Shown here piece after piece: positions 2,803-64,000 of a DNA stretch of 64,000 nucleotides (its first letter is position 1; the number at the start of each line of letters is the position of its first letter). The translations under genes were made by a program, and so were the position numbers. This DNA comes from Selaginella tamariscina. Lineage: Eukaryota > Streptophyta > Lycopodiopsida > Selaginellales > Selaginellaceae. Below the pieces are notes generated by a model. It saw only the letters and a program-made list of their open reading frames with translations. It had not been told where the DNA came from and made no database searches. Where the stretch lies: assembly GCA_003024785.1 (NCBI GenBank), contig PUQB01000284.1:186001-250000 (forward strand), in the 5' to 3' direction.

Positions 2803-2803
2803 T

Positions 2804-3665: not shown

Positions 3666-3834
3666 CATGCACTAGGCACATTGCACCACCTCTGAAGAAT
3701 TTGATTCCTGCACATGGTTGACACTTCCTTGAAGCACCTTTGTTCTTCCATGCTTGTGTGGGCATAGGGGTCTCAAGTGAGTTATCGGACACCGAGTGTT
3801 TTATGTTTGTGTTCTCAAGCATGGTAGAAGGAAT

Positions 3835-5859: not shown

Positions 5860-6893
5860 ATGACAACCCGATGTCCGGACACATGGGATTCCAACGATGC
5901 CTTGAGAGGATTTGGCAGCACTTGTATTGGCTCTGATTGCGGCAAGACCTGCATGAGTACATTCATACGTGTCCGGAGTGTCAACGGCATAACATGTCCA
6001 CACTTCGTCCTGTTGCAACCTTGGAGCCAATTCGAGTTTCTCGCCCCTTTGAGCTGTTAGCTTATGACATCATGGGACCATTTCCTGTGTCGCAGTTTGG
6101 TAATCGATACATCATTGTGTGCTCTGATTATTTGACTCGGTGGGTAGAAGTGTGTGCTTTGTCGGATGCTACAACAACTTCTATCATCAAGTTCCTGCTA
6201 GCTCAAGTGGTGCTGAGGCATGGTTGCCCCGAATGAATTTTATCAGATTAAGGACCAGGCCCAACAGCAGAAACAATAGCTTTGTTGATGCAACAGTTGC
6301 AGATCCGACAATCCTTTACCTCAGCATATCATTCTGAGACTGATGGTTTGGTAGAGCGGTTGAACAGAACTTTTAAAGTCATGCTTGCCAAGTATGCGAG
6401 CCCTAACCTTATGGATTGGGATATGTGGCTTCCATATCTCCAATTTGCTTATGTTTCAGCCCCTCACAAGTCAACAGGATTTCCCCATTCAAAGCTTGTA
6501 TGGTCGTGAACCTGTGTTGCTGCCAGCAGTTGGCATCACTTCTCACGAGGCACGGTATTATGGATGGGCGTATATGGTTGGAGCATTTGAACCAAGTCCT
6601 TCCTCTGTTGTATGTTCAAGGTGGAGAACAGTTAGCCCGGCATAAGAGTATCAGCGTCGAACTTACAATCAACAACATCAAATGCCACTCAATATCAAGT
6701 GGGAGATTTGGTTCTTGTCAAGTTTCTGAGGCTAGGGGATCAAACACACGCAGCAAGGCTTCAGCCGCGATGGGTTGGGCCTTGGAGTGTTGAAGAACAG
6801 TTGGAGACACAAGTGTATCGCTTGAAGCGGTGTGATGGTGTTCGAGAGTCACAACATGTCGCTCATGTGTGTCGGCTACTATCGTTACACTAG
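5860..6893 (+). pseudogene. Integrase remnant, gypsy 1
   Basis: The zinc-binding HHCC region includes 'CPECQRHNMS' near 5,970. The catalytic core follows as 'LLAYDIMGPFP', 'CSDYLTRWVE' and 'FLLAQVVLRHGCPE', where a stop interrupts before the second aspartate. After a frameshift 'DGLVERLNRTFK' carries the glutamate side of the DDE triad. The C-terminal domain is readable as 'GDLVLVKFLRLGDQTH' to a stop at 6,893. There is no convincing chromodomain. Confidence 0.85.
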
Positions 6894-6960
6894 CGGACAC
6901 TCATCCAAGGAGGAGGACAACCTTAATAGGTAGACGTCAGGGGGATGATATAAGGTTCCA

Positions 6961-7187
6961 TGGTAATACTACGTATATACACCACGTATACTCTGCCATT
7001 GAGGTGCCATGTGGCACTAGGATTCAGGTGCACTAATTTGGGCACTGGCTAATCTGGGCGTTGGCTAATCTGGGCACCATGATTTACTTGGCACCAAGCA
7101 CGCTAATCCTGGCACAGACACTTAGTATAAAATACCTTGTATGAGTCAGACCTAATCGAATCATATTTGGTATTTACATTTCTCTCA
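6961..7187 (+). repeat. 3' LTR of gypsy element 1
   Basis: Starts TGGTAATACTACG and ends TTTCTCTCA. It is about 25 bp longer than the 5' LTR through a local duplication of 'GGCACTGGCTAATCTGGGC'-like sequence. A purine run (CAGGGGGATGA, 6,938-6,948) upstream may be the polypurine tract, although it lies 12 bases from the LTR start. Confidence 0.8.
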
Positions 7188-8476
7188 AACCTATACTTAT
7201 TTAATAATGGACATATCTACATACAATCGTATATGTTCATATGTGTATATTTATAGCTTTAGCATTGTACATGATGTAACATATATATCATTTGTATAAA
7301 ACTTTTAGGGGCATTTTCACCAGTCATAAATTTAAATTTTACGGGGTCGAAGGTGGTTTTACGTTCACACTAACAATCCTTTAACTCTTACATAAAATTT
7401 TTTGGATAAGGTTCATACTCATTCCCACCTTTAACAAAATTTGTGGAATAAGTGTTTCCCGACCATTTTTTAAGTGACCCTTCCCAGGTCACTTCAAATA
7501 AATTTGATCCTAGGGCTTATGTCTAGCTTTGCTTGGCACGTGCGTGAGTGACTAGCCATTAGCTAATATACTCAGTCACATGTGGAATTGGGGGGCTGGG
7601 CTGCTCAATTTGGCATGAGCAGCCCGTTTGCTTAGCCGCAGGCCAGTCTAAGCAGCCGGGCTGCTCAATTGGGCATGAGCAGCCCAGCCGCAGGCTGGTC
7701 TAAGCAGCCGTGCTAAGGCTGCTCAGCCCAACCTAAGCACGCTTGTGCTGAAGAGACCGCGGTGGTGGCCGATATCTCTCTCTAAATGCATTGTATGTGT
7801 GCCTGTATTATATATATGTATTATACTGTGTGTGTAATATATATATAGACACACACACACTTGTTGACAATATAATCCTTATGTATATATCAAACTGATA
7901 TGCTCTCTCTCTCTAAATGCATGTATGTGTGTGGGTGTATGATACTTATTATATTGCTGCTGTATAAAACTGTGTATATGTCATATATAGTGTGTAATAT
8001 TGTATGTATATGTTTTCTCTTATATGTTGTGTACACAATATTATATCATATGGATATATATAAGGGAAATATATGTGAACACAATTACTTAAATTTATCA
8101 CATGTGAACGACTGGATTAATGTGAATGCTAAACCCTTAATTTAACAATTTAAAGGGTTTTGGTCTGAACATAATTCACCCTTAACCGGTGCGAATGCCC
8201 CCCTTATGCATATATCATAATAAAAAGAGTAACTAATATGCATGTGTCTCTGTATATGGACTGTGCAGTAGGAGTGTGCTACCGTATTGAATCCTAGTGA
8301 ATATTCTTTGTGAAATTCTTAACACTGAGCAATACTCATAGTTAATTAAGGCACATTCGTGTCTTTATCCAACTATGGGTGTGGGATCTTGATTAACAAG
8401 TTTTCTTTACCAAGTTTCCGAGGGCTTAAAAGGGATTTTAGAGAATGCATCTGTTAGCCATGTTTGTGACACAAAG
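7188..8476. other. Non-coding interval with GC-rich inverted/tandem AGCAGCC repeats
   Basis: The first ~110 bases continue the duplicated block. At about 7,590-7,745 there are two tandem copies of a GC-rich unit built from CTGCTCAAT, GGCATGAGCAGCCC and CTAAGCAGCC, which also fold on themselves. From 7,780 to 8,000 there are TA, TG and CT microsatellites. The one open frame of about 80 codons (7,900-8,145) is low-complexity and I do not regard it as a gene. Confidence 0.6.
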
Positions 8477-29177: not shown

Positions 29178-29885
29178 TTGAAATTGAAACCTAAGAAGTG
29201 TGTGTTCGGATCGATTAACACCACTTACTTGGGTTACTGTATATCTCGAGAGGGTTTACAGGTGGATCCAACGAAGTTGCGAGTTGTTCGAGAGTTTCCT
29301 CGTCCCGTACGGTACAGGAAGTCCATCGTTTCTTGGGCAAGGTGCAGTACTTGGATCGATTCATTGATCATCTTGCTGATCGAACTGTCCCTCTTTGGGA
29401 GTTAGTTCGTCCACAGGTACCTTTCAAGTGGACTCACAGGTGTCAACAGGTATTTGACCAGTTAAAAGAGTTCCTAACAACTCTACGATTACTTCAATAC
29501 CCAGATTTTACTCGTCCATTCATTTTACGGGTAGATGCCTCAGATATTGGTATTGGTGGTGTGTTGATACAAACCGATGCTACGGATCCTTCAATTCGAC
29601 ACCCGGTGGCTTACATTAGTCGAGTACTCAAGCCTGCTGAGCGGAATTATTCCACTACTGAAAAGAATGCCTTGCTGCTGTTTGGGGTTTTGAACAACTT
29701 TATGCCTACTTATATGGGAGTGAAACACTTTTGGAGTATGATCATGCTGCTGTCACTTCCTTATTAAAACGGAAGAATTTAGTGCGTCGTGTAGCTAAAT
29801 GGGCATTACGTCTCCAGGTATATAACTTTAAGGTGGTGCACAGGCCTAGGCAAACAATGTTGGATACGGATGCACTTTCTTGAGC
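29178..29885 (+). pseudogene. RNase H region, gypsy 2
   Basis: RT connection 'KLKPKKCVFGS' and 'YLGYCISREGLQVDPTKL' leads to a frame at 29,333-29,767 with 'FILRVDASDIGIGGVLIQT', which carries the first RNase H aspartate, and 'ERNYSTTEKNALLLFG'. A stop follows 'LDTDALS' at about 29,881. Confidence 0.85.
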
Positions 29886-46249: not shown

Positions 46250-47947
46250 AAAGTGAGGTTTGTCTTACTCTGCTTAGATTCCATCTTACACACGATAGAG
46301 AGTACTCTTTCTTATTAAGAATTCATTGGTGAATTCTTTATTAAATGTCCCCAATGTAGAAAGGAGTAGCGGTTCACGTTATTAGCTGTTCTAAAGTTTC
46401 TTCACAAGAGCCTAGGCCTAGAACACATTGGACAGTCCTGGTTGATGGACCTTTTTCTTTGATGAAGCTAATTTGGTCAGGTTAGAGGCAGGGGCACAAA
46501 CAACTTGGTTTCAAGATGTCATGTCGCTTACGAGACAAATCATGATAAAAGCAGACCCTAATATCTATGTGGTGAGCTCTAATATCTATGTGGTGAGAGT
46601 GTGTCGTGTAACACTCCCCCCAACCGAAGCCACTCACCAAACCAAATATGTCATGCAGGAGCTGAAACTGGTGTGGCCCCAATGGTTTGGTGAGAAGGTC
46701 GTTTGGCATATCCTTTGTCCCAAGATGTTGGACTGCTATGGTGTTGTCGTCAACCAACTCATGCACTTAGTGAAATTAGACTTCAATGTGCTTCAAGCGA
46801 TCATGGTGAACGGGGTTCTTGGACATGGCAATGCTACTCCGGTAAGGAGTGGGCCAACTTGTGTACATTCCAGCTCAACAAGTAGCCCCTGAGCCCAGAA
46901 CCACTTCCATGCTACAAGTAGTGAGTGCGATGTACTCAGCTTCTACACTAGAATGTGCCACCACAGATTATTGTGTGGGCCTAAGAAGGAAAGGCAAATG
47001 CCAGAAGTCGAGCGATGACCTTTGTTATTGGCAAAGCTAACATTTGTGTAGCATGTCAACAATGCATAACCTCTCGAATAAGCAATGCCATAGTCCATAG
47101 TGCCCCAGAGGTATCTGACGATACACTTGGCAGCTTGCTAATGCATGGTGGTTGGTGATATGTTGTATTGACTCAAGGCAATAGTTGCATATGTGATGTC
47201 GAGGCGAGTCATTAGGGCCAAATACGTGAGGCAACTGATGAGATGCCGATAGGCAGTCCCAACGGGTAGAGGCTCACCGGATTGCTCAATCATGAGGTCG
47301 ATGGCAACGACAACCATCGGGGTCTTGATGAGGTGGCAATCATGCATACCAAACCAATCCAACAAAACTTTGATCTTATGTTGTTGGCTAAGCATGTAGC
47401 CACAAGACTTGGAATTGCATGTGACCTCAAAGTCAATAAAGTAGAAGACTTAACCAAGGTCCTTCTGTTGGCTGAGAGCAGCAATGACATCGGTGTTATC
47501 ACCCATGAGGAATAAATCATCAATGTAGAGGACCACAATGAGCATGCTCTTGGCATGACTCTTCACATACACATTGTGATTAGCATGGCAGCGACAAAAG
47601 CCTTGAGCATGTAGGGTAGCATCAAACTTTTAGTACCAAACACGGAAGCTCTGTTTTAAGCCATATAAACCTTTCTGCAATTGTCATATAGTGCCACTAG
47701 GGGCAACATCGTAAGAGGTATATGCATGTAAATATCCTTTTGCAAATCCCCATTTAAGAATGCCGTCTTGACATCCATATAGTGGACTTGCCATAAGCAA
47801 CTGCAAGTGCAAAAAGGGTACGAAGGCTGGCCATGCTTATAACTAGTGAGAATGTTTTGTTGTAGTCAAAGCCATGGACTTGGCAAAATCTGTGAACAAC
47901 CAACCGTGCCTTATAACGTACCACCTGACCATCTTTCTTATACTTTT
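46250..47947 (-). mobile_element. Ty1/copia retrotransposon 2, 3' half (RT to LTR)
   Basis: Minus-strand pieces run from RT 'YKKDGQVVRYKARLV' (47,940-47,900), through 'VVLYIDDLFLMGDNTD' (catalytic loop, near 47,530) and 'YRHLISCLTYLALMTRLDIT', to RNase H ('SSVEAEYIAL' near 46,925) and 'GTKDMPNDLLTKPLGPHQF' (near 46,700). A polypurine run GGGGGGAG and an LTR starting TGTTACACG at 46,613 follow; the outer LTR end is uncertain. The upstream half of the same element is at 62,912-64,000, displaced by the 15-kb insertion. Confidence 0.85.
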
Positions 47948-47976
47948 ATGCAAGTTGTAACTAAAATGGGCATGGC
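47948..47976 (+). repeat. Left terminal inverted repeat
   Basis: Starts ATGCAAGTTGTAACTAAAAT and ends GGGCATGG. It matches the right end with three small indels. The next bases (CTATAGTCCCATTT) also form a local inverted repeat with AAATGGG inside the TIR. Confidence 0.8.
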
Positions 47977-48454
47977 TATAGTCCCATTTCCTAATAATTA
48001 ACAATTTTAGCTATTTAATTAGCATTTTCTAATATTAAAGGAATATTCTTTAGAATATATGTTTGAAAAGAGAATATTCTTTAGAATATTCTATTTTGTA
48101 TTCTACCCTTTAATAAATTATAGCATTCATTGAACAAAAATTAATAACATTATAAAAGTAGAATGTATTAATTATATATATATTGCCTACCTAAATAACA
48201 ATTAAGGAAGAGCATAAGAGGTACATTATATAAATATTGATGTTGTTATTAAAATATTAATATTTAAATATAACATTATTAATTAAAAATTTGTAGTAGT
48301 AATAATATATATATAAAATCCTATAATAATATAGTCAATCTTCCATATCATTTTTTAAATTTATATAGTTAAGTATACAATTTGGTACTATTATTAAAGA
48401 GTTTATAATATATTATGAATATTAAATATGATATTTTATAATTTTGTAATTGCT
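47977..48454. other. Left AT-rich arm of the transposon
   Basis: Non-coding. 'GAATATTCTTTAGAATAT' occurs twice (48,041 and 48,072), itself an inverted repeat. Similar GAATATTC-type motifs recur in the right arm (62,714-62,742) and the AT-rich centre. Confidence 0.6.
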
Positions 48455-51400
48455 TTAAGCTTCAGAAAACATACATTCCCTTGCAGTTTTGTTAATCGTG
48501 ACTTTATCAACGCTTCTTGACATCCACCCATATCGAATAGATTTAACATTTATAAAACATGTTGGGTCTTTTTGATTGGGAGACCATGTTTTCTCTAGGC
48601 ATCCATTATATCTTTCGCTCTCCTTCTCGTGTCGCCTTTTTTGTGGGTTTGAACCATGCAACCTTAACAATACTATTTTTTTGTGGATTACTTCAGGTGT
48701 GTCGATAATTTGACCCATCCAAATAGGCTGATATATGACGCATCTGGAGTAATGAGAACCATCATTAGTTTTTGAAGATCCTTGCAGCAATCAAAGTATG
48801 CTTTAGGTTTTTGGTTCCTTTGTCCAACAAAGTGTGGGGTTTGCACTTCCACATCACTACTGGCTTCTATGTCGTCTGTGCTCAGTGATGTCATTTCAAT
48901 CTCCTCTCGCCACCTTGTTTTAGGCCAGAAAGGGTGTTGCAATTCTGTACTTGTGACAGTAGGCCCTTCCAACTCTCGAACAACAGTCTCCCAATAGTTG
49001 ACCACATGCTTATATAGTTCTGAGTAACCAGTTGCCTTATCAGAATTCTTTGGCATCGATTTTTGAACCCATGCCACATATTTTTTGATGCCATCAATAA
49101 TAACCTCTTGTTCCTTGAGCTGGGCACTCAATGGAATAGGGTCTGGTTGTCCTTCTGGGAGAAGTGGCTTTCCATCCTCTCCACTTTTGAAGAGCATTAA
49201 GCCCTCTTTCGGTAACCACTCCTGCTCTGATGGCCGTAACTTGTACTGCATAATAGGTATACCATCTCGTATGGAGAAAAAGAATTGTAGCGGCACAAGG
49301 TGACCAACTAAAGAATCACTCCCTTCTTTTATATACTCCTTGAGAAATTTTTTGAAGTCTGGCACCTCAGTCACAAGCAAAGCACAACTTTTTTTGGAGA
49401 TGCAATTTTCAAAAAGATTCATCATATGCGGTAAGGTAAGTGCACTTGTCCTTTTTGTAGAGTTGGAGACCTTGCTGAAGAACGCATCAATATCTTCATG
49501 AGTGTGACCAACCATAAGGAAACTGAGCGTGATTGTTTCAAACACACCTTTGGCAACAAGCATTGACAAGTATGCTAGCACATATCTAGAAAATAAAAGT
49601 AAGTATGAGCTTGAGAAACCCTTAAGTAAAATGATTTACCTATTTTTGTTCTCGCCTGCACAATTATCCATCTGTAAAAGCAAATGACGAGGAAGCTTAT
49701 TTGATGTTGAGGACACATGTACACTATTTGAGCTAGATCCCTCCACTGAACCTGAACTCTCAACAGGGCCATCTGTTTTTTGTGCAGGTTGCTGACAATG
49801 CCTCTCATATTCCCAAGTAGCCTCAAGTGCAGACGTGTTCATGAGAGCATTATGTAAAGGTTGAAGGTGTTGTTTCTTCACTTTGAGATCACTGATAGGA
49901 CTTGTCTGTGAGTGGGCTTCAAGGTTTCTGAAACACATGGCTAACGACCCAATAGTGAAATTGGAGTCGCTAGACCAATGTGGAAGTGAAAAGTGTCCAT
50001 ATGACTCACAACCGTGTCCATGTGTTAGCACACCTGTTAAAGAAATCGGAAGTTTCATGACATTTCCAAGGCACTTTGGTGTTGCAAAGAGCTTTGGAAT
50101 GCTGGTCTTTGAATGATCCATCTTGTCATGGATCAAGCACAGGTACTCTGATGGGCGTGACACAGAAAGCATGCGGTGTGCATAGTACTGAGACCGACAA
50201 GTTTGTTGTGCAATCATGTGGGCCTCCATCTTCCTTTGAATGGTAGTGATCTCCACCAAGGTTTTTGCACAAGCCTCTGCAGCCTTCAATGATGTACAAG
50301 TGTCACACTTAGAAAAGCTAGAGTGTTTTGCAATCTCCACATCCTTAAAATGAGTATTCCATATGTTGTTGAAGGTACCAGTGCAGATTGCTTGGAGCCC
50401 CATCAAACTGAGGCACTTGTTCACATGTTCACACAGTTTCAATTGAGTGTAGATTGAAGGTAAAACCTTGAGATTTTCCCTGACCCCTGCATTTGTGGTT
50501 CGGCATTTGTGAGGCATCCTGTCTGCATTTGCTTCCACAAAAGCCTTGAGTATCTCTATGGCTGCCATGATGTGAGAGCGGGTTTTGACCAAGCCAGTGT
50601 TCCCATGAACTGAGGTTCGCGCTCCATCTAGCCACTCATCCCTCCGACGGTAGAACGTGGTCTTTGGGATCCCGTATATACTGTACCAAGCTTTGAAGCA
50701 GATGGCCACCTTATTAAATACCATGGATGTACTCTGATAACCTGTGTCCGAGGCCATTCCATCAATACACCCAGTTAGTGCAGCATATACAAACTCATGC
50801 CTTTGCTTTTGGGTGAGCATACGAAAGACATGTCTACATTGGGTAATTTCATTCCGGTCTGCCATCTGACAACACTTCTTCTTGCAACAGTCAATCGTGG
50901 AAATGCTCGTAACACTTTCGGAAGATGTAGGATCCATCTTTACCCTCTTGCTGAAACTTGCAGGGGAAGATCTACAACCCATGAATCGCCTTTTTCTTAC
51001 AATAGGACCAATGCAAGGAACCTCTTCAAATATGAGTTGTTCTTCCGGGTTGTTATTATTGAAATCCAACCCAGAATATGTTGAACCATCTTGCCGTCTT
51101 AATTCAGATGTTCGCCACCTCACGAGGGATCCAGGATACAATGTGCCATTAGGTGAAACCTCTGTCACAACTACACCCACGAAGTCGGACCCTAGTTTCT
51201 CTTCTGACACTGCTTCCATTGGATTTATAGCTGTGATGATGCCTCTTCCGACTTCAATCTCACGAAGAAAGAGAATCACCTCATCCATTACAGCAGGCAA
51301 GCCATCATCTGGTAAACTCGTGCTACTATTTGTTTGTGACTCTGCATATTTGTGTCAGCCTTGACTTCATCCAAATTCCACAATACAGGAGAACCCTCCT

Positions 51401-51590
51401 CAAATTCCATTCCCAGAACCTCAACATGCTTGAAATGGTGTTCACCCATACGTACACACAAGATCCTTGGGAAATATTGTGACATGATGCATTATTATCT
51501 CGAACTTCCACAGTTCCAGTGCCAACTATCTCGTTGTTCCGAAGAAGACATACTTTATCTCCAGTATTAAACATATTGTCCTGCACATAA
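48455..51590 (-). CDS. DDE/RNase-H-like transposase (DUF7869-like), with frameshifts
   Basis: The main exon (51,300-49,640) has a cysteine cluster ('DCCKKKCC', ~residue 137), a DNA-binding-like region ('AWYSIYGIPKTTFYRRRDEW'), a second zinc-like pair ('KCDTC', ~331) and catalytic-type motifs 'IHDKMDHSKTSIPKLF' (~391) and 'LLLQMDNCAGENKNR' (~541). A 53-bp GT-AG intron (49,639-49,587) splits 'NKNR' from 'YVLAYLSMLVAKG'; exon 2 then has 'FLMVGHTHEDIDAFFSKVS', the hallmark third motif. The C-terminus continues past a frameshift near 48,750 as 'WMGQIIDTPEVIHKKIVLL' to 48,455. The N-terminal exon (from 51,586) holds 'TGDKVCLLRNNEIVGTGTVE' and needs two more frame changes (near 51,440 and 51,350). 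The role is cut-and-paste of the element. DDE assignment is by motif; this copy may be inactive or contain sequencing indels. Confidence 0.8.
49587..49639 (-). other. 53-bp GT-AG intron of the transposase gene
   Basis: On the minus strand AACAAAAATAG|GTAAAT ... TTTTCTAG|ATATGTGC. Removing it joins N-K-N-R to Y-V-L-A-Y in frame, inside a conserved block. Confidence 0.85.
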
Positions 51591-51762
51591 ATAATTGTAT
51601 TATTTATGATATCTGTTTATGCAATATTTTTAAGAAATCTGAATTACGGTTACTTAATAATATGCATATGCAATAATACATAATTATGTTTAGAGATAAT
51701 ATCTCATGTTTGATTAATACAACTGATGGGCGGGATTAATACCCCTCCGACGAGGAACGGTC
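51591..51762. promoter_or_regulatory. Region between transposase 5' exon and palindrome array 1
   Basis: An acceptor-like TTATGTGCAG (minus) lies directly before the first readable exon, so a further 5' exon or leader is likely within or beyond the array. AT-rich. A degenerate first palindrome (GGGCGGGATTAATACCCC) lies at 51,728. Promoter assignment is inference from position. Confidence 0.4.
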
Positions 51763-52632
51763 GGCGGGATTAATCCCGCCGCCGACTCAACCCCTTCGGA
51801 GAGAGTCGGCGGGATTAATCCCGCCTTGGACTCCCTCCGACAAGGAAGAGCCGGCGGGATTAATCCCGCCGCCTCTTCCTCCTCGGGGGGAGTCCGGCGG
51901 GATTAATCCCGCCGACTCTCTCCGACGAGGAAGGGAGTCCGGCGGGATTAATCCCGCCGCCGACTCAACCCCTTCGGAGAGAGTCGGCGGGATTAATCCC
52001 GCCTTGGACTCCCTCCGACAAGGAAGAGCCGGCGGGATTAATCCCGCCGCCTCTTCCTCCTCGGGGGGAGTCCGGCGGGATTAATCCCGCCGACTCTCTC
52101 CGACGAGGAAGGGAGTCCGGCGGGATTAATCCCGCCGACTCATCCTCGCCGGAGAGAGTCGGCGGGATTAATCCCGCCGGACTCCCTTCCTCGTCGGAGG
52201 AAGAGGCGGCGGGATTAATCCCGCCGGCTCTTCCTTGTCGGAGGGAGTCCAAGGCGGGATTAATCCCGCCCACAATTCTTACGACGGGGAATGGGTGGCG
52301 GGATTAAACCCGCACATAACTCTCTCCAAAACTATGATTTCAAAGAGATCTCGGGATAAATCCTGTCCCCAAATCTTTAAAACAGGGAAGTGGTGGCGAG
52401 ATTAATCCCGCCACCCCTTCCCTGCCTCCTAAAATGGTTGGCGGGATTAATCCCGCCGACAACTCTTTCTAATAAATTCTGGTAACTCTTCATCAGTTGA
52501 GAAGGTTATCGACGGGATTAATCCCGCCACTCTTTTTCAGTGGCGGAGAAGCATTGCCCGGGAGATGGTGGCGGGATTAATCCCGCCACTTCTTCAAAGA
52601 GGCGAAAAAGAAATGGCCGGATTAATCCCGCC
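51763..52632. repeat. Palindrome array 1: GGCGGGATTAATCCCGCC at ~45-bp intervals
   Basis: Fourteen exact copies of the 18-bp perfect palindrome start at 51,763, 51,808, 51,853, 51,896, 51,941, 51,986, 52,031, 52,074, 52,119, 52,161, 52,208, 52,253, 52,440 and 52,570. Variants lie at 51,728, 52,297, 52,395, 52,511 and 52,615. Steps between the first twelve are 42-47 bp. Spacers are GC-rich ('GACTCTCTCCGACGAGGAAG'-like) and belong to a few related types. A 178-bp unit is duplicated head-to-tail (51,763 and 51,941), and part is repeated in inverted order after about 52,140. The copies occur only inside the 15-kb element. Confidence 0.95.
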
Positions 52633-52639
52633 GCCCGGT

Positions 52640-54230
52640 TAACCTAGAATATTAAGTTAAAAGGATATTTAAACGTGATAAATCCCTAACGGAATATATT
52701 ATAATCCTAATGCATTTCTAAACCCCTAAATTGTAATTTTAAGAGAGAATGTAAGAGAGTGAATCTTAATAAGTATTTTTAAATTTGTTTATAATACTTA
52801 CTTGTAAACAGCACTGAAGGCGCCGTGCTTTCCTATAAAGAATAGCACCCAATTTAATCTCGCTCCTGAGATGATCACTATGAAGAAAAAAGAAGATCTA
52901 AAGAGTGAAAAATACAGAAATGAAGAAACCCTTGCCGGAGAAAGAACCAGATCTGAATTTGAGTGGGAAATTAAATGCATTTTCAAATTTACATGTCAGA
53001 CCGACAATACATATGTCAGAAATTCAAATTTTTTAAAAAGAACAGAAAATAAAATTTAAGATGAGTTGACACAAATATCCGACACTCTGACATATATACT
53101 CTCCAGTTCCAATGAGTATTTTAAAATTGCATTTAATGTTATTCAAGTGATTCAAGCTGTTTAATATTACGAAATTTTAGACTATATTCTACATTCTTAG
53201 TATTCAAGTATATTTATATTATATATATATATAAATATATACTTATACAATAAATAAATTGATATATTATTATGTATCATTTAAAATATATTCATAGTCT
53301 GTTTATTATTATTATTTTCTTAATTACTCGAGTATTTAGTTTTCATTTCCTAGTATCAATGGGATATTCTTTAATATTTTATTAATATTTGAAGAATATT
53401 CTAATATTAAACCTGATTATCATAATTAAATTAGTCTTGTTCTTAATTATTGCAGTAATTATTCTACATTTGTATATATTAATGGGATTTTCTCAATTAA
53501 TTTGTTATTATTTCAAGAATATTCATGTGTTAAACCTTATTATCAATATTAAATTAATACACACTATGAACATATTTTAAATTATACATAATAATACATC
53601 ATTTTATCTAATATATAGTCATATATAGTTTTAATAATATATATATTAATATCATTTCCTTAATTACTTGAGTAATTAATCTTCTTTATATTAATGGGAT
53701 ATTCTTTATTATTTTCTTATTATTCCAAGAATATTCCAATATTAAACATGATTATGATAATTAATTTAGTTAATTATTTGAGTACTTAATTTACATTTGT
53801 ATATATTAATGGGATTTTCTCAATTAATTTCTTATTATTTCAAGAATATTTCAATGTTAAACCTTTTTATCAATATTAAATTAATATATATTATTAAAAC
53901 TATATATGGCTATATATTAGATAAAATCATATATTATGTATAATTTAAATATGTTCCTAGTGTGTTTATTAATTTTATTTTCTTAATTATTCGATGTTTG
54001 TTTTGCACACATATATAAACACAATCATAAATTTACACACGCATTACAAGAACTTACAAAAACACATATGCACACACATGCACAACCCTAAACCAAACTG
54101 AAGAAATAGGTTGCTTCTTTATTGAAAACATCATGTTCAACGCATGTATGATATATGTACTCAATCTGTGTGACTGTATGTAACACATTGAATTTACATG
54201 TGTAATATTTATATTAAGCTTGTTGGGAGC
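52640..54230. repeat. AT-rich centre with ~330-bp tandem repeat
   Basis: The phrase TATATTAATGGGATTTTCTC recurs at about 53,473 and 53,803 (period ~330), with the intervening 'AATGGGATATTCTTT' phrase recurring on the same period (53,357 and 53,694). No convincing gene: the 62-codon frame at 52,871-53,059 is isolated and lysine-rich. Confidence 0.7.
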
Positions 54231-54233
54231 AAA

Positions 54234-54262
54234 CCCTAAACCCTAAACCCTAAACCCTAATA
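54234..54262. repeat. Interstitial telomere-type repeat (CCCTAAA)n
   Basis: Four consecutive CCCTAA(A) units. A second block is at 54,696-54,722. CCCTAAA is the common plant telomere repeat. Short interstitial tracts can arise by repair, so function is not implied. Confidence 0.85.
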
Positions 54263-54695
54263 TGTAACACAATGAATTTACTCATGTAATATGTATGTAT
54301 GTCTGTGTGTATACACGTGTGCATGTATATATGTGTACTCTGTATGTATATATGTGTACTTTCTGTCTTCTCTCATACATACACACCATGCATGATCCAT
54401 GTTAATATGTACTGTCTCTCTTCTCTCAAACATACACACCATGCATGATCTATAATATGTACTCGGTCTCTCTAATATTATGTACTAATATGTATGTATG
54501 TCTGTGTGTATAATACACACCATGCATGATCCATAATATGTACTGTCTCTCTTCTCTCATATACTATGTATGTATATCTGTGTATAATATGTGTAAGTAT
54601 ATATGTGTACTAATATATGCAATGTGTACAAAAATAATTTTTCAACACTCTCTCTTCTCTCATACATACACACCATGCATGATCCATCCTAAATC

Positions 54696-54722
54696 CAAAA
54701 CCCTAAACCCTAAACCCTAAAC
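54696..54722. repeat. Interstitial telomere-type repeat, second block
   Basis: CCAAAACCCTAAACCCTAAA and continuing, three to four units, in the same orientation as the first block 460 bp away. Between them are repeated 'CACACCATGCATGATC' and 'TCTCTCTTCTCTCA' phrases (three to four times), indicating a ~100-bp tandem duplication. Confidence 0.85.
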
Positions 54723-55099
54723 CCATGTAATATGTGTGTATGTCTGTGTGTATACACGTGTGTATGTATATATTATGTGTATTAATATATGTGTATGTAT
54801 GTATTGATACACATGAAACTTTAACACTCTCATGGACACACACATGTTAAATCCCTGCATGATTTATATTTTTGAGGTGTATGTGATACACCCACGCACA
54901 CGCACGCGCTAATAATATAATAAAGAATATTCGTTTAGGGCGAATCTATATTTTATTCTTTTTAGGGTTTAAGTATATTCTCAGAAGGAATATTCTATTA
55001 GGGTTGATATATATATTTAATTCCTTTAGGGTTTAGGTATATTCTTAGGGTTTCAAGAGGCGGCGGCTGTGAAATCGGCGGCGGCGGCTGTCACACAGG

Positions 55100-55377
55100 T
55101 GAGATCTGTGTGTGTGTGTGTGTGTATGTATGTATATATGTATAGGAGTGTGCGTATAATTTTATTTATTAGTTTTATCTCTCGCACACACACGCACACT
55201 CCTGTGTATGTATATGTGTGTGTGGGTGTGTTTTGTTTATCTGTATGATTTTATTTGTTTCGCTCACACACGCATACACACGATATACATATACACATAT
55301 ATATATATACCTATATACATATATACATACATATATTATGTGTACCAGTTCTGTAAATTTTTTTTTATTGATCTTGC

Positions 55378-55440
<63 letters not shown>

Positions 55441-55502
55441 TATGTGTACCAGTATCTGTAAATTTTTTTTATTGATCTATCTCTCCCACACACACGCACT
55501 GC

Positions 55503-55550
<48 letters not shown>

Positions 55551-56220
55551 CAACACTAGTTTATATATATGCTTATATATTCATATGGGTTATATATCTA
55601 TATACACACATATATATATGTGTGTGTTTTTCTGTATAATTTTATTTATTTATTAGTTTTATCTCTCGCACACACACGCACACTCCTGTGTATGTATATG
55701 TGTGTGTGTGTGTGTTTGTTTATCTGTATGATTTTATTTGTTTCGCTCACACACGCATACACACAATATACATATACACATATATATATACCTATATACA
55801 TATATACATACATACAACACTAGTTTATATATATGCTTATATATTCACAGACTCTCTCTCTTTCTCTATAGATTATATATCTATATACACACATATATAT
55901 GTGTGTGTTTATCTGTATAATTTTATTTATTTATTAGTTTTATCTTTCGCACACACACGCACACTCCTGTGTATATATATATGTGTGTGTGTGTGTTTGT
56001 TTATCTGTATGATTTTATTTGTTTCGCTCACACGCATACACACGATATACATATACACACATATATATACCTATGTACACACATATATTAGGTGTACCAG
56101 TACTGTATAATTTTATTTATTTATTATCTCTTGCACACACACGTACACTCCTATACATACATACATACATACATATATATACACACACACATATATATAT
56201 GTGTGTGTTTTTATCTCGCT
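55100..56220. repeat. Microsatellite-rich tandem block (CA/TG/TA)
   Basis: Long (CA)n (55,381-55,417, 55,505-55,533), TA and TG runs are embedded in a larger unit. That unit, containing 'TTTATCTGTATGATTTTATT' and 'GTTTCGCTCACACACGCATA', is repeated near 55,236, 55,718 and 55,999. Apparent open frames up to 143 codons here are translations of the repeat and not genes. Confidence 0.85.
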
Positions 56221-56227
56221 AAGCCCC

Positions 56228-57735
56228 TCGAGCGGCGGGATTAATCCCGCCGCTATATAGTTGGGGCCATGGCGGCGGGATTAATCCCGCCGCCGAGGCC
56301 CTTCAGCAGGCTATGGGCGGCGGGATTAATCCCGCCGCTCTACGACAAACCGAAGAGCGGCGGGATTAATCCCGCCGCCCATGGCCTGCGTGAGGGGCCT
56401 CGGCGGCGGGATTAATCCCGCCGCTCATCCATGCCCTGCGCGGAATGCGGCGGGATTTATCTCGCCGGCAATGGCCTGTGTGAAGGTTCTAATGGGCGGG
56501 ATTAATCCCGCCGGATTCCGCGCAGGGCATTTAGAGGGAATGGCGGCGGGATTAATCCCGCCGCCGAGGCCCCTCACGCAGGCCATGGGCGGCGGGATTA
56601 ATCCCGCCGCTTTCGGTTTGTCGTAGAGCGGCGGGATTAATCCCGCCGCCCAGGGAATTCACGCAGGACATGAACGCCGGGATTAATCCGGCCCCACGCT
56701 CATGCCCTTCGCGGAGGGCGGCGGGATTAATCCCGCCGTTCATGTCCTGCGTGAATTCCCTGGGCGGCGGGATTAATCCCGCCCCCACCCATCCCTGTTC
56801 AAAAATGCCGCAGCCAATATATATGTGTGAGCGCATGATTTACGAGAGGGCGGCGGGATTAGCCGCGAACCTTCATTACCCGGTGGCGAGATTAATCTCC
56901 GAACCTTCATTATCCCATTGGTATGTTGAATCAATCCCGCCTAACTCTGTCTGAGACGGAGAAGGTTTACAAAATACCAATGGAGGGAACCGAGAAGGGT
57001 GGTGGGATTAATTTCACCATCCCTTACATGGTGGGCGGGATTAATCCCGCCGTGTACGCATGCCCTGCGCGGAATCGGGCGGGATTTATCCCGCCGCCAT
57101 TGGCCTGCCTGAAGGGCCTAGGCGGCGGGATTAATCCCGCAAGATTTCGCACAGGGCCTGGGAGGCGGGATTCATCCCGCCGAACGCCAATGCCCTGTGC
57201 GAAATCGGGCGGGATTTATCCCGCCGCCATTGGCCTGCCTGAAGTGCCTAGGCGGCGGAATTAATCCCGCCCGATTCCGCGCAGGGAATTGGCGTCCGGA
57301 GGGATTAATCCCGCCGCATAGGGATCGAGTGAAGGCCCTGGGCGGCGGGATTAATCCCGCCGAGTCTTCAATGCCTGTTGGAGAAATGAATCTCGCCACC
57401 CTTCCCTTTTTCCTCCATTGGTGAGTTGGACCAATCCCAAACGTTTCTGTCTAAGACGTAGAAGGTTTACAACATACCAATGGAGGGGACTGGGAAGGGT
57501 GGCGAGATTCATTTAACCATCCCTTACATGGTGGGCGAGATTAATCCCGCCTCCTTTCTGGAGTCACTGAAGGGGTGTGAGAAATAAATCCTGCCCAGTT
57601 CTCTCTGAGACCGAGAAGGGTGGCAAGATTAATTCCGCACTCCCGTTCAAGGCCTCCAGAAAGGTGGCGAGATTAATCCCGCCCACTCTTTCAGGAGGCA
57701 TTGAAGGGGTGGCGAGATTAATCCCGCCGCACCTT
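56228..57735. repeat. Palindrome array 2: GGCGGGATTAATCCCGCC at ~45-bp intervals
   Basis: Thirteen exact copies start at 56,234, 56,274, 56,319, 56,359, 56,405, 56,495, 56,545, 56,591, 56,630, 56,720, 56,766, 57,034 and 57,344. Single- or double-change variants fill the same rhythm (56,449, 56,674, 57,078, 57,124, 57,164, 57,208, 57,254, 57,300), with looser copies to about 57,730. Spacers differ from array 1 (GGCCTGCGTGAGGGGCCTC- and GCGCAGGGCAT-type) and occur in inverted pairs, so 56,319-56,647 and 56,648-56,765 are larger imperfect inverted repeats. All short ORFs here encode repeats of 'GGGINPA'/'AGLIPP', translation artefacts. Confidence 0.95.
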
Positions 57736-58070
57736 CCATGTGAATATATATGTGTATTAGTATATATAAGTTGCATATCTCATTTTATTTACTTTTATCA
57801 TCTTATCATAATATTTCGAGTAAAAGCTAGGAATCTATGTAAAACTGTCCAGAGCTCACATTTGTGGTGGTTCTAAAACGAAATGTTATCTTTCTTTTGC
57901 ACTAACACAAATGTGAGCTTCGGACAGTTAATTACGTCTACTTCTCTCTGTGTATTATTTTTGTATATTCGGGTTTATACAAGTGTGTGTGCGTTTTTAT
58001 ATATTTGTATTTATAGTGTATTATTTTGCAGAAGGACGATTTGATCAAACAAGGAGATCGAGTCATTAGT
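57736..58070. promoter_or_regulatory. 5' region of the ParB-methyltransferase gene
   Basis: It holds the stem-loop and ends with an acceptor-like TATTTTGCAG (58,022-58,031) followed by an open stretch to the ATG at 58,071. An upstream leader intron is therefore likely, as for the transposase gene. No certain TATA box; TTTATATATTTG at about 57,995 is a candidate. Confidence 0.4.
57843..57929. other. Stem-loop with 24-bp near-perfect stem
   Basis: 57,843-57,866 (AACTGTCC AG AGCTCACATTTGTG) pairs with 57,906-57,929; only two positions (AG against GA) differ. The loop is 39 bases. Size and shape resemble a microRNA-type foldback or an inverted-repeat remnant. It lies between array 2 and the ParB-methyltransferase gene. 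Confidence 0.7.
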
Positions 58071-61000
58071 ATGGAGTCGTCGTCAAATTCTGGGTAAGAA
58101 TTAAAATAAAATCTGTTATACTCGGATACTTGAACTAATCATTTTTGTATTCAGATGTGGAATTGAAGTGACATTAAAGACAAGAGCAGGAGAAGAGATG
58201 GGCAGGGGGATTTTGGAATCAACTTGGCCATATTTTAAGATAAATGGGAAGCGCATTGGAGCAACCATGGTTGCTGTCAAATTAACCTCTGTCACATCTC
58301 ATGGACAAGCAAAACAATGGAAAGTTGATTCGCTAGTCAAGCACCCGAAAGCAGGCTGCGAACCCAGATTGGACGATGCTCGACAGATATGCCTTGTTCC
58401 ATCCAATGTCACGTTCTCGGATCCAGAGGTCGTCAGTTACAACATTAATCTCGGGTGGTTTTGTCGACTTGTGGATAATGATGTTCACGTGTTCACTAAT
58501 GATGTTGACCTTGGAGTTCTTCTTCAACTCAACGAAAGCCCATCTATGGAGGGGATCCATCTGGATGTCTACTTCGAAGATCTTCAGACTCATCGAGTAG
58601 GTGTATTGTCAGGAGATATTGTTCACAATACAGAAAATCAGCAAGTGGAGCAATCTTCCCTCTTGACATTGAAGAAGAACACAGCGACATCATAAGGGAG
58701 ATTGAGAAGGTGGCTCGGTCTCAGGTTCTCTACAGATCACGTTCAATTTGCTTAGGAAGCTTCGGGAGCTGGAGGAGTGTGCCGAGAACACTAGAACAGC
58801 TGCAGTCGGGGATCACACATGTTGATTCGGATCGCAAAAGAAAATCATCAATCGTTTTGTCAGCTGCACCTGTGGCATCTCATGCTGCAATAAGTCACAA
58901 GGAAATGATGTTGGATGATAAGATTTATCCTTGTAGGGTTAAATATTGCAGCGTCAACCCAAACTTCAATTACAGGCCACTCAACCAGGAACGTGTAGCT
59001 GAGCTCATGGAGAAGATGAAGGACGACAATTCTTATACCGTTCCACATAATGCTGTTTTGTGTCCATACTATGAAAGAAGGAAGGGTGCTGACAAAGTCT
59101 GGATCACAACACCAGAACAACTCATGAAGATTCAGACGGAGAATAAAAGATCTATCAAGTACTACATCATTAGTGGCCAGCACACAATAACGGCAGCCCA
59201 ACGACTTCTCGATGAACACAACAAAGGAACGATGGCAACAAAACTTTCCGAGCATACCCGTGAGAAGCTGACAAAAAGATCGGCGTTTTTAGCTAAGCCG
59301 AATCTCACAATCGAGCAGTACCATAAGTTATCGGCGGAATGGGACGCTGCCGACACCAACCACTACAACAGCAAAATATGGGAGAAGTTTAAACACACGC
59401 GAGCCGTGTGGGAATCTCTTCAGCGACCACAAAGAGCTACCGCAGGGAATACACAATCTGCGGAATACCGGGTAAGCAAATTGTTTGGGCGGGATTTATC
59501 TCGCCGGTATATTAATCTGTCTTTTTCCTCAGAGAGTTGAAGAAATTGCAGCAGTTGATTTTGCCCAGGTGGGCGGGAAGGAAACATCATTTCTGATGAT
59601 GTTGATTTCTTGCCCCGAAGATAGGATCTTTGCCAAATGGTTGGGGATTATGGAATCCTTTTCAAAAGGAACACTGAAGAAGAAGCAGACAAGTGAAGGG
59701 GAGCCCTCAGAAAAGTCTGCAAAGAAACCCAGTAAGACGCCGAAGGCTAAGTCTGTTCAATCTACAAAGGATGTAGACAACGATTTCAAGCTCACATGGT
59801 TGAAGCCTTTAAATGGAACAACGATGGAGGAGATGGAAGTCTTGGCTGATTTGGTGATCGATGGCAAACTACAAATTAATAACAGCAGCCCAACCTCTCC
59901 TTTTCATCTCAAGGCAATGGAGTTGAAGACGGTCAGGCATTTCAAGGAGTGGTTGGGAATACACTGCCACAAACTGGGTTGGACCTCGACTTCAACATAT
60001 GAAGAGGTTAGCAAATATTTGCATGTGACGAACGATGATATGCTTGTCGAATGGGTGAACCAATCGGAAGATCTAGGCAAGAATCTATTGCACGCCAACG
60101 CCAAAAAGGAGAACATTGGGATGACGCCTTCTCTTATGGCAGTCCTTCAGCAGCGGAGAACCGAATTGAACCTTATAAAGGAGGATGCTACGAATCACGA
60201 CAAGCCCTACAGATGTTTGTTGTTAGATTCGGAGACTTTATGGGGTAACATCACTGCTTGTAGGAAACCGTTTCAATTGTTCGTGATGGATCGGCGGGTG
60301 TCAAAAAATCTTTCGACAGATAGGGCACTAGAGGATCTGGTGGAGAAACTTAGCCGTGCAAGCATATACATAGAAGGTATTTATTATTGAATTCATGCTT
60401 GCGCTCTTCACTGATACCTACTTTTTCAGGTATTTATTTCTTGATTCTTGCTCATGTCACCGATACTTTTGCCTTCGCCTTCGCCAAGAAGAATAGACAT
60501 CGTTGGACAGGATTTTATATGAACGATGCTAATCCCAAGTGCATTGATACTGTTGTTCACTTGGTTGTTAGGAATGCGCCAAACAATTTCAAGCTTCCAA
60601 ATGACTGGCCAGGCATCTGTTTGCACTCCAACGGCCCTGAACCTCCATCCGATACACCGATAGGTATGAGTGACGTATTCGGCAATGTACGTTATCCAAA
60701 CATTACAAGTCAAGCGGCACGGAGCATCGTCAACTTGATCAGGGGTCCTCACAGTGATGCGTGGGTTTTTGACTACTGCACTAGGGGGTCCGTCTTGAAG
60801 GAGTGTTACCTTCGGCATACATGTGTGTTTGCCGTTGAGAAGGATAAGACCATGGTTGAGGACCTGAACAAGTGGATAGATTGGGTCTCAACTGAGTACC
60901 CCAACGAATCCATAAAGGCGTATTTGAGAAAGTTCCCTCCAGATAAGTGCGATAGCTCTGAAGGTGAATCTGGTTCAATCTCGGAGTCTGAGAACGAACA

Positions 61001-61175
61001 TCAATCAGATATTAGACCGGAAGTTATCTCGAGGAGTACAGAACATTCGCACACTCCAGGACCCATGGAAACATCAATAGAAGATGCAGAAGATCTTGAA
61101 CCATCTCACAAGCGGCTTAGACCTTCTTCGCCTCATTCAGAAGGTAATAGCGAAGAAGAATTGATAATGAATTGA
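58071..61175 (+). CDS. ParB-like domain fused to beta-class DNA methyltransferase-like domain
   Basis: Four exons: 58,071-58,093, 58,155-59,471, 59,533-60,376, 60,430-61,175 (about 975 residues). Exon 1 starts MESSSNSG; exon 2 starts CGIEVTLKTRAGEEMGRGIL. After one frameshift near 58,650 a ParB-like segment follows: 'FNYRPLNQERVAELMEKM' (58,960-59,020) and 'IISGQHTITAAQRLLDE' (59,165-59,215), matching ParB's R..(x)..V..L and GxHR..AA elements. The C-terminal half resembles N6A/N4C methyltransferases in beta order: 'FQLFVMDRRVSKN' where DPPY is expected (~60,280), 'WPGICLHSNGPEPPSD', 'MSDVFGNVRYPNITSQAARS', then 'WVFDYCTRGSVLKECYLR', 'CVFAVEKDK' as the AdoMet-binding (FxGxG-like) motif (~60,765-60,845). 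The tail is acidic and serine-rich with 'KRLRPSS', nuclear-signal-like. Role inferred: sequence-specific DNA binding and ancestral methylation. Catalytic motif loss suggests an inactive enzyme here. Confidence 0.7.
59472..59532 (+). other. 61-bp intron containing a palindrome copy
   Basis: GTAAGC ... CCTCAG; removal joins 'SAEYR' to 'RVEEIAAVDF' in frame. The intron includes GGCGGGATTTATCTCGCC (59,488-59,505), the same two-change variant as the array-2 copy at 56,449. Confidence 0.85.
60377..60429 (+). other. 53-bp GT-AG intron in the methyltransferase domain
   Basis: GTATTTATTATTG ... CTTTTTCAG; joins 'SIYIEG' to 'IYFLILAHV' in frame. The exon after it starts with the same GTATTTATT as the intron, so a small duplication created or moved the border. 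Confidence 0.8.
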
Positions 61176-61447
61176 TAGAGTGATGAATAGTTGTAAATGA
61201 GTGTAACATAAGGCATTTTTGTATATTTCTTTTATATTTGTACAGAAAATAAATTCTCAAGGATTAATGAAGCTTTTAGTTCAAACATGGGTCACACATT
61301 AACAAGGTAAATAATATACCTTGATAATTTTAAGGTCAGCTAATTATCATTTTGCAGATGTAATGAAATAATTGAGAACATGGATTTTCAGCATTGCCAT
61401 GAGGTAAGAGAGGGGTTTGGCGACAATTTCTTGTGCCACATGTCAGA
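61176..61447. other. Spacer between methyltransferase and phosphatase genes, possible leader exons
   Basis: Splice-like sites occur (ACAAG|GTAAATAA at about 61,306; TTTTGCAG at 61,351-61,358; GAG|GTAAGAGA at 61,403; GTCAG at 61,442-61,446). The phosphatase gene may therefore have 5' leader exons here. No coding domain is recognised. Confidence 0.4.
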
Positions 61448-62623
61448 ATGACAGAGTTCATGCAGGAAATGGATAATAATGCAGCTCAAAACATCGTTAC
61501 CATGGGGGCCACTTCAGTTTTTGCATCATCATTTTTATTGGCTTCAGTTCCGAAATCAATTTCTTCAGCGCATGCAATATCTGAATCTTGTAAGGATGAT
61601 GTACAATTAAATGATGAAGGGATAGGCAACGAAATAGTGGCAACGGATAAATGTGAAAGGGAGCAAACAAGTGATTTGCAAAGTATTCAAGAGGCAACGC
61701 TATCTCACGTTACTCATGGCCATATTGTGTTGTTGGATGTCAATGGTGTTCTGCTTCATCGACAAAGGCCCGAGGATAGAAAAACAGAAATCAAACAAGG
61801 AGATTTCATTCCTTGTCATGGTAAATTTCGATATGATATTATTTTTCGTCCAGGGTTGGATCGTCTCTTTCAAAAGCTTAAGGAGATGGGTGCGCTTGTG
61901 GGGATTTGGTCATGCATGCAGATTCATAACTTAACACCGCTGTTGAGTTTACTTAAGAAACATTGTAGTGTTGCAGAAGAGGTGATTCGTAAAGATTGGA
62001 TTTTTGACCAGCGAATGTGTTATAAACCTCTCGAATTTCACAATATAAGAAAGGAAAGCAAGCCATACTTCTTCAAGAATGAAAGAATAATTGGGACTCA
62101 TGGGGAGATCAGTCGCTTAAGGATAACGAAGAATGCACATATCTTAGTAGTAGACGACTCTCCTCAGAAGGCTATGCTCAACCAAAACATTGCTTGTATT
62201 CATCCAATCACTTTCGATCCATATTCTGATATCGATATCATGGATGAGCTAGTGAACTACTTGGATACGTGCCTCAGAAAGAAGAATCTCGAAAATTTTT
62301 GTGAGCAGTATCCACCGTATCATACATTTCCTGAAGCTTTTCTTTCTCGTGATATTGAATTTTATAAAATGAAGGATAGCAACCGGGCGCTTTATAATAT
62401 TATTCTTAAGGAACGTCAGTTTTTAGATGAGCCTTTATGCAGACCTTCTCTTATCACATCTTATGTATTAACAAGGATGGCAACTCCCAATTGCATTCGT
62501 GAGAGTGTTAAGTGGTGGCAACAACATCAAGATATTGACCAAAATGATTTGATTAATCCGGAGAGTGATGATTTAGACAAAATGAAAAGATTTCTTTGTA
62601 TGATAGAAAGAAAGTATTTATAA
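61448..62623 (+). CDS. HAD-superfamily FCP1-like phosphatase
   Basis: An uninterrupted frame of 391 residues from ATG 61,448 (MTEFMQEMDNNAAQ); the frame is open a few codons upstream without another ATG. Motif I reads 'IVLLDVNGVLLHR' (~residues 93-105), with D-x-N instead of the usual D-x-D. 'FRPGLDRLFQKLKEMGALVG' and 'IWSCM' (~133-157) match the FCP1 R-P-G-L...W/S core, and 'HILVVDDSPQKAMLNQNIAC' (~232-250) is the DD motif, followed by 'YSDIDIMDELVNYLDTCL'. FCP1/NIF-type enzymes dephosphorylate serine/threonine, classically on RNA polymerase II's tail. The second motif-I aspartate is the general acid, so its change to asparagine may reduce activity. The N-terminal ~90 residues are low-complexity. 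It is the only clearly intact gene in the element and could be cargo captured from the host. Confidence 0.8.
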   Translation: MTEFMQEMDNNAAQNIVTMGATSVFASSFLLASVPKSISSAHAISESCKDDVQLNDEGIGNEIVATDKCEREQTSDLQSIQEATLSHVTHGHIVLLDVNGVLLHRQRPEDRKTEIKQGDFIPCHGKFRYDIIFRPGLDRLFQKLKEMGALVGIWSCMQIHNLTPLLSLLKKHCSVAEEVIRKDWIFDQRMCYKPLEFHNIRKESKPYFFKNERIIGTHGEISRLRITKNAHILVVDDSPQKAMLNQNIACIHPITFDPYSDIDIMDELVNYLDTCLRKKNLENFCEQYPPYHTFPEAFLSRDIEFYKMKDSNRALYNIILKERQFLDEPLCRPSLITSYVLTRMATPNCIRESVKWWQQHQDIDQNDLINPESDDLDKMKRFLCMIERKYL

Positions 62624-62883
62624 AAAATTAACATGTTGATAAGAAAATGATTTCATTTGTAATTATGTTTGATAGTATTTCTTCATTATTGTAAACTATT
62701 TTTAGAATAATATGAATATTCTAAGATATTTTAGGAATATTCCTTACTAAGTAAGGTTATTGAAGGATTAATTAATTAATTAATTAATATTTAAGGCTTA
62801 ATTACATATTAATTAAATGATTAATTAATAATTAAAACTTAAGTATTAATTAGTAATTTATTTTATATTCCCATTTTCACGTA
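62624..62883. other. Right AT-rich arm of the transposon
   Basis: Non-coding; includes (TTAA)n-rich sequence near 62,768-62,790 and 'GAATATTC' motifs like the left arm. Confidence 0.6.
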
Positions 62884-62911
62884 TCATGCCCTTTAGTTAC
62901 CAACGTTGCAT
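62884..62911 (-). repeat. Right terminal inverted repeat
   Basis: Plus strand ends ...CAACGTTGCAT. Read inward on the minus strand it begins ATGCAACGTTGGTAACTAAA and continues GGGCATG, matching the left end. T-runs flank both ends. Confidence 0.8.
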
Positions 62912-64000
62912 TTTTAGAAAATATCCATTTTGGATCCAAAACACGTCGTCCCGATGGCGCTGAATTCACTTGAACAATAGGTGCCATTAACCTGAATAGA
63001 AGCAACTTCTTCCACAATGGGTTCCATCCAAGATGGAGCCTCAAATCCTGAGACGGCCTCATCATAATGGGGATGCCGGCATCAACAAGACCACAAAATC
63101 ATCAAGCTTTGTAGCAACTGCTTCAGCATTTCTCGAACTTTCAATGAGGGCCGACATTTCCAGGGGTGATCAAGAATTGGCATCGGATCAGACATGCCAC
63201 AAGGTGGTGGAGTGTTGGAGGCATATCCTTGACTAGAGGAGCATCATCCGGTTTGGCATGTCTAGAAGTGGAGATTCCCTAGTGGAATCTTTAGTGCAAC
63301 TCACGAATAAGATCTAAAGGTAGAGGCAAGAGTGGATCATCCCCATAAGTGAGATCAAAGAATAAGTTGAGTCCATCAAATGAAAGAAGGATCTTGAAAA
63401 GACTTTGTGCACATGGAAAGTCATCTTCATTGAATATGACCTCCATGCTTACAAGGGCCCTGTGAGATATAGATTCCACAACTTGTAAGCTTTTCTCCCA
63501 ATGGTGTCAACCTATGCATATCCCATGAAGATGAATTTTTTACTTTTGGATTTAGCTTTTTTCTAAAGTTGATCAAGGGTAGTGTGTATGTTGCACAACC
63601 GAAGACCCGAAAGTGGGACACATTAGAAGTAGAACCTGTCTAAAATGCCTTAGGGGTTTTCTATCCAAAGCAGCTATAGCAAGGCAATTTTGGATATGCA
63701 TTGCTGCCTCTTGCCAAACATCTTTGTTGAGATGTCATCGGCTAACAAAGTGCGAGCAGCATTGACAAGAGTGTGATTCTTCTTTCCGCAACACCATTTT
63801 GCTAGGGGTGTATCAGGTCGTGGCTTGTAGTGGTATGCCTACATCACGACAATGCCTCGAAGCTTATTGCCATCGTCAACCCGAAGATCTTTTATCTTGG
63901 AGATTTTCAACGTAAGCCTTGTATGTTTGAAACGCAGCAACTGCATCACTCTTACACATTAAGAATGATGCATGTTTGAGGACTATAGTCATCAATGAAT
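62912..64000 (-). mobile_element. Ty1/copia retrotransposon 2, 5' part (integrase end to RT start)
   Basis: Minus-strand motifs: 'HFRVFGCATYTLPLINFRKK' (63,618-63,560, the conserved segment after the integrase core), then a decayed linker, then 'APSGRRVLDPKWIFSK' (62,960-62,915, start of RT), which stops exactly at the 15-kb element. It runs off the window end and contains several stops and frameshifts. Confidence 0.8.

Follow-up and report, generated by a model that had tools for sequence, protein, structure and literature searches.

Among the closest systems described so far are algal DNA transposons with ParB-methylase genes. According to PMC12477816, Sola1-1_Ec32 of Ectocarpus is a giant Sola1 transposon of 21.5 kb which encodes a ParB-methyltransferase of 1104 aa, with transposase and methyltransferase on opposite strands; for ParB-methylase transposons of green and red algae, the same text refers to Iyer 2011 and Petroll 2025. 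In another system, VANDAL21, arrays of a motif lie upstream of VANA and in the introns of VANB and VANC, and binding of VANC21 is accompanied by loss of methylation (PMC5735166). We analysed a stretch of 64,000 nucleotides from Selaginella tamariscina, hereafter the window (assembly GCA_003024785.1, contig PUQB01000284.1, positions 186,001-250,000). Positions 47948-62911 of the window are a complete terminal inverted repeat (TIR) DNA transposon of about 15 kb, sitting inside a copia reverse transcriptase (RT).

By its description in PMC12477816, Sola1-1_Ec32 resembles this element in being a giant DNA transposon with a ParB-like and N4/N6 methylase-type protein opposite to the transposase. It differs by its host, a brown alga, and by its 21.5 kb; the window family differs in turn by a methylase part that profiles do not recognise and by the presence of a HAD gene. 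The first-pass annotation took such a combination as not known from a named family, a statement that has to be weakened in view of the Ectocarpus element. What is new is the palindrome module: palindrome arrays are unmentioned in the available part of PMC12477816, and no relevant report on palindromes in ParB/methylase transposons was found in the open-licence literature searched. VANDAL21 of Arabidopsis likewise combines an element-encoded protein with densely packed motifs, which stand in arrays in front of the transposase gene and within accessory-gene introns. It differs in that transposase and protein are unrelated, the motif (YAGTATTAY, 9 bp) is not palindromic, and binding and loss of methylation were shown there (PMC5735166), whereas here both are inferred.

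The ends, the target site duplication (TSD), the empty site, the copies, the transposase family, the divergent second gene and the arrays upstream of both genes were observed directly. On this basis, and with confidence just short of even, we propose that the ParB-like protein, descended from a methylase fusion, binds the palindromes of its own element, a Sola-like giant transposon, and counteracts silencing.

The element, its ends and its copies

A single minus-strand copia RT is split between the two flanks, ending and restarting at the element borders, and removal of the insert together with three T's gave a continuous RVT_2 match over the junction (4e-16, residues 5-77), as the first-pass annotation had read it. 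All 14 copia-only matches fetched from the same genome were uninterrupted at the insertion point, where they read ATACTTTTTGGAAAA. The TIRs, with ATGCAA...TTGCAT ends, were rightly called imperfect (25 of 29 aligned columns identical). Their score was matched by 1 of 100,000 random anchored pairs drawn from the window; an unanchored search was weak, its local score being reached by 4 of 1000 random pairs.

Searches of the plant's own genome (the assembly named above, 300.7 Mb) revealed other copies with the same TIRs. With a 201-bp query, at least 40 left ends, window included, were found at 96-100% identity (40 of 1461 first-look candidates scored). The right-end query gave at least 63 matches (40 of 94 candidates scored), namely 26 right ends, the 14 copia-only matches and 23 short inverted matches, and the DUF7869 profile gave at least 300 (150 of 4249 first-look candidates scored). 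The family is abundant, with a high copy number in this genome. Nine of ten long copies fetched aligned end to end. The tenth, C738, consists of the left part fused to an inverted right part, a structure which looks as if two copies had met. The longest high-scoring segment of each long copy was 94.8-98.6% identical to the window element, and identity dropped to 75-88% in and around the arrays of some. Copies frequently differ by single bases, with many single-base deletions among these differences, which may be mutations or assembly errors.

To count TSDs, 20 further left ends were retrieved, together with the right stretches belonging to 19 of them. This gave 31 copies including the window, from which C738, C692 and C25, whose right ends were not located, and C647 (off contig) were removed. 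An exact 4-bp TSD was present in 16 of the remaining 27 copies (six with ATTT, two with CTTT and eight with a sequence of their own), TTT only in 2, and neither in 9; the right end of C1366 was set by eye, and C147 and C687, which have the last 14 bases of their left flanks in common, are perhaps not independent. Flanks paired across different copies matched in 9.7% of cases, and 16 matches were reached in none of 100,000 permutations. The family TSD is therefore 4 bp, and not the 3-bp TTT first suggested. The window itself has four T's on each side of the insert (TTTT/TTTT), and the empty copia site has five, so that a T has gone missing here, or else this single insertion duplicated 3 bp.

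The transposase belongs to the DUF7869 family, as first annotated, with PF25273 matches above cut-off (Table 1). Ten homologues are 29-49% identical to it, the best in the protein search being at 49%. D410, D563, D603 and D605 were invariant among the 11 sequences, all of which share the pattern VGHTHxDxDA. Like the N-terminal extension, the C-terminal end of the window protein is read in more than one frame. Sola elements, as Bao reportedly described them in 2009, have a 4-bp TSD and a DDD set of catalytic aspartates; as a Sola element, Sola1-1_Ec32 would share the TSD length of the window element. We read the latter as a giant DUF7869-class TIR transposon, Sola-like by its 4-bp TSD and its Asp-rich conserved, putatively catalytic core. 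The N-terminus of one homologue matches TNP1/EN/SPM PF03017 at 0.023, below cut-off, and recalls the En/Spm (CACTA) proteins TNP1/TNPA. The CACTA transposase is PF02992. The window element differs from En/Spm by its DUF7869 transposase, its 4-bp TSD and its termini, which are not CACTA.

Palindromes, the ParB-like gene and its relatives

The two palindrome arrays of the first-pass annotation were both found. The palindrome GGCGGGATTAATCCCGCC occurs 44 times in the window at up to 3 mismatches (27 exact), always within the element: array A, with 19 copies, precedes the transposase and array B, with 24, the ParB-like gene, in whose first intron one more is found. Each of the 11 long copies, window included, has 32-48 palindromes, and whole-unit duplications were seen in the arrays. 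Between arrays A and B, cores are 94.8% alike, a value inflated by their selection at up to 3 mismatches, and flanks 30-31%, near chance. When copies were compared to the window, cores differed by 1.4% and spacers by 3.9% (Fisher 1.5e-16; 15 of 20 array-copy pairs, the five with identity below 88% being dropped), with the reservation that repeats may align out of register; deletion rates were alike, 2.3% in cores and 2.6% in spacers. The observed/expected CpG ratio of the window arrays (51725-52700 and 56230-57740) was 1.15 and 1.02, against 0.38-0.47 in the transposase gene and copia. It was 0.90 and 0.75 in array spacers alone, and 0.77 in the ParB-like gene. In the 10 other copies, arrays had 0.98-1.24 versus 0.36-0.39 for the transposase gene.

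The ParB-like exon lies on the plus strand, is connected to two further exons by GT-AG introns, and contributes to a protein with a ParB-like GxH motif. The frame at 58105-58692 is probably the N-terminal part of this gene, as judged from sequence, because the frame break that separates it from the ParB-like exon is missing in 9 of the 10 other long copies; 4 of these 9 are free of any other frame-shifting gap in the stretch. Purifying selection acts on the exons in the window (omega-like 0.32, p 0.001). Neither the ParB nor the methylase part was recognised by Pfam, PHROGs or NCBIfam profiles, PF01555 gave no match to the exons up to E 10, and protein searches with the product gave no match among the candidates scored. 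Since three profile libraries fail on it, the ParB/methylase label rests on relatives and weak pairwise similarity: the ParB-methyltransferase fusion of the first-pass annotation is suggested by the former, but profiles do not recover it in the window.

These relatives came from a profile scan of genome contigs with the transposase alignment, which gave ten loci (L002-L011), six of them from a metagenome-assembled genome (MAG) labelled Trichormus (ERR2144891). The MAG contigs are taken as eukaryotic from their introns and retrotransposon genes (Ty3/gypsy), and the name of the symbiont points to Azolla as the probable source. The prokaryotic MAG records for the ten loci, the Trichormus one especially, contain apparently eukaryotic transposon contigs as contamination.

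Four loci (L005-L008) have a DUF7869 transposase divergent from a ParB-like gene, and tblastn of the window protein reached the same places, at E 0.04-0.14 only. The methylase motif DIPYG is present in all four, and DLFSGTG in L005 and L006, the two whose contigs reach it. L006, the sole locus scanned, matched PF01555 above cut-off (4.1e-8), and PHROG methyltransferases at 9.5e-6 and weaker. Between the two genes, all four have palindromes of the form GTCGATRC-N3-GYATCGAC, different from that of the window. Strict copies number 1, 4, 13 and 10 in L005 to L008, that is at least four in 3 of the 4, with a spacing of about 51 bp in L007 and L008; L005, where one strict copy is joined by a few imperfect ones, makes a weak case. 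L003 and L004, which also belong to the Trichormus MAG, have two palindromes each near a contig end. None was found in L002, L009, L010 and L011, where no ParB-like gene was seen either.

L006 (CAKZGI010000204.1) is a TIR-bounded element of 7.7 kb (391-8114) within a Ty3/gypsy gene, with a 4-bp TSD, AACA, provided that the TIR is taken as AACAC. The joined Ty3/gypsy flanks are still open, so the insertion is probably young. It shares with the window element the divergent DUF7869 and ParB-like/methylase genes, the intervening palindromes, the TIRs and the TSD length. It differs by its size, by the grouping of its palindromes in one place, by their sequence, GTCGATGC-N3-GCATCGAC instead of GGCGGGATTAATCCCGCC, and by its recognisable methylase motifs; no HAD relative was found in it by tblastn.

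What the ParB-like protein may do

That distant relatives keep the pairing of gene pair and palindrome, with a different palindrome, suggests a self-recognition system. In the explanation we favour, the second gene's product would descend from a ParB-methylase fusion such as that of the relatives, and would have come to bind, in a sequence-specific way, the palindromes of its own element at two divergent promoters. By occupying the arrays there, it would keep the element from being silenced, by analogy with VANC on VANDAL motif arrays, the nearest functional precedent, and might also co-ordinate transposase expression. In favour of this explanation we count the gene pair with its intervening palindromes in the four relatives, the purifying selection on the window exons, the lower variation of cores than of spacers, the likeness of arrays A and B in the core alone, and the CpG content of the arrays, which is not depleted as it is in the transposase gene. 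A broader generalisation, which we hold more loosely and regard as possible though doubtful, is that DUF7869 transposons hold a ParB-like protein co-evolving with a palindromic target array; lineages would swap the target sequence while array and position stay, and in the plant family the methylase would now be selected as a binder, perhaps without methylase activity, shielding an abundant element from silencing.

The palindromes might instead be binding sites of the transposase complex, the ParB-like protein being a transposition helper with no anti-silencing function. En/Spm subterminal repeats are bound by TNPA, and such palindromes would be their internal analogue. A related domain is found both in the transposase and in the frame that precedes the ParB-like exon, and the sub-threshold PF03017 match mentioned above goes in the same direction. 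The domain match is however modest, the arrays are internal, at both promoters and not close to the ends, and one palindrome lies within intron 1 of the ParB-like gene. We consider this alternative unlikely, if a serious one.

Alternatively, the window protein could be an active N6A/N4C methylase marking its own palindromes, as proposed for the algal relatives; PMC12477816 does propose such self-modification. The PF01555 match and DIPYG motif of L006 are in favour of it, as are a DKPY in the window protein and the selection on the window exons. As for catalytic motif IV, [DNS]PP[YFW] is absent from the window protein and from L006, which has DIPY, and a relaxed pattern, [DNS].P[YFW], has a single match in either protein, DKPY at residue 487 in the window. 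Against it, the window exons have no methylase profile match, and none of the 11 copies has, in the stretch of the SAM motif I, the glycines that mark DLFSGTG, alignment gaps aside. The methylase part has diverged beyond recognition in the window family, and is more probably inactive than active; we find an active methylase quite improbable. Residues 380-480 (exon 59533-60376) gave the best Smith-Waterman match to the methylase part of L006, with 1 of 400 shuffles as high; this match falls between motif IV and motif I of L006, and so does not fit the order implied by the resemblance to motif I further downstream.

It is more doubtful still that the arrays have no function and simply result from the amplification of repeats or from unstable hairpins. 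The variable palindrome number, the whole-unit duplications and the equal deletion rates in core and spacer would fit such an origin, but conserved cores amid unrelated spacers, with fewer substitutions, would not, nor would different palindromes at the same position in all four relatives with the gene pair. Finally, an action as in ParB-parS, clustering or tethering element copies in the nucleus, has very little to recommend it: the GxH motif and a many-times repeated palindromic site would suit it, but no partner ATPase gene was recognised, and the ParB assignment is itself weak.

The self-marking role so far only proposed for algal transposons with bacterial-type ParB-methylase genes becomes directly testable in a high-copy plant family with a defined, conserved palindrome, relatives with a different one, and a strongly diverged methylase part. 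The points to test are the binding target of the protein, the need for methylation, and the array's influence on silencing.

Feature coordinates and neighbouring sequences

Table 1. Features of the element and its insertion site, in window coordinates.
Feature	Position	Strand	Evidence
Copia downstream half (RT remainder and what follows it), interrupted by stops and changes of frame	46482..47943	-	
Left TSD, TTTT (4 bp)	47944..47947	.	family TSD 4 bp in 16/27 copies having both ends
Left TIR	47948..47974	+	start identical in other copies
DUF7869 transposase, stop-to-stop, two exons	48690..51354	-	PF25273, 1.2e-12 and 7.2e-27
Transposase intron, GT...AG	49586..49639	-	spliced product reads ENKNRYVLAYLS, like homologues
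Transposase N-terminal extension, multiple frames in this copy	51326..51616	-	blastp to P0002 residues 2-37, 1.2e-5
Palindrome array A, upstream of transposase	51729..52632	.	GGCGGGATTAATCCCGCC in 19 copies, allowing 3 mismatches
Central AT-rich non-coding part, TG/AC microsatellites and plant-telomere-like repeats	52700..56230	.	
Palindrome array B, upstream of ParB-like gene	56234..57728	.	24 copies
Frame upstream of ParB-like exon, domain resembling transposase N-terminus	58105..58692	+	14.3 bits vs 8.4 for best of 500 shuffles
ParB-like exon (YYIISGQHTITAAQRLL)	58680..59471	+	
Intron 1, one more palindrome at 59488-59505	59472..59532	+	
Second exon, tentatively methylase-like	59533..60376	+	
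Third exon, stretch WVFDYCTRGSVLKECYLRHTCVFAVEKD resembling methylase motif I	60430..61166	+	
HAD/NIF phosphatase-like gene, motif I LLDVNGVLL	61403..62623	+	PF03031, 1.3e-11
Right TIR	62885..62911	-	end comparison of copies
Right TSD, TTTT	62912..62915	.	flank comparison of copies
Copia upstream half (up to RT start)	62916..64000	-	RVT_2 joining, paralogues

The catalytic motif of NIF/FCP1-type HAD phosphatases is DxDx(T/V). The HAD gene of the element, annotated at first as a phosphatase, belongs there by its PF03031 match, but its motif reads DVNGV, the second catalytic Asp being an Asn. It may have a role in the element. In the central AT-rich part, (AAACCCT)n repeats of the plant-telomere type were located at 54231-54258 and 54698-54718. 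Elsewhere in the window, open frames at 4241-4747 and 29219-29767 resemble, by eye, pieces of Ty3/gypsy RT and RNase H, and ARAGORN predicted a tRNA-Thr (AGT) at 2073-2144.

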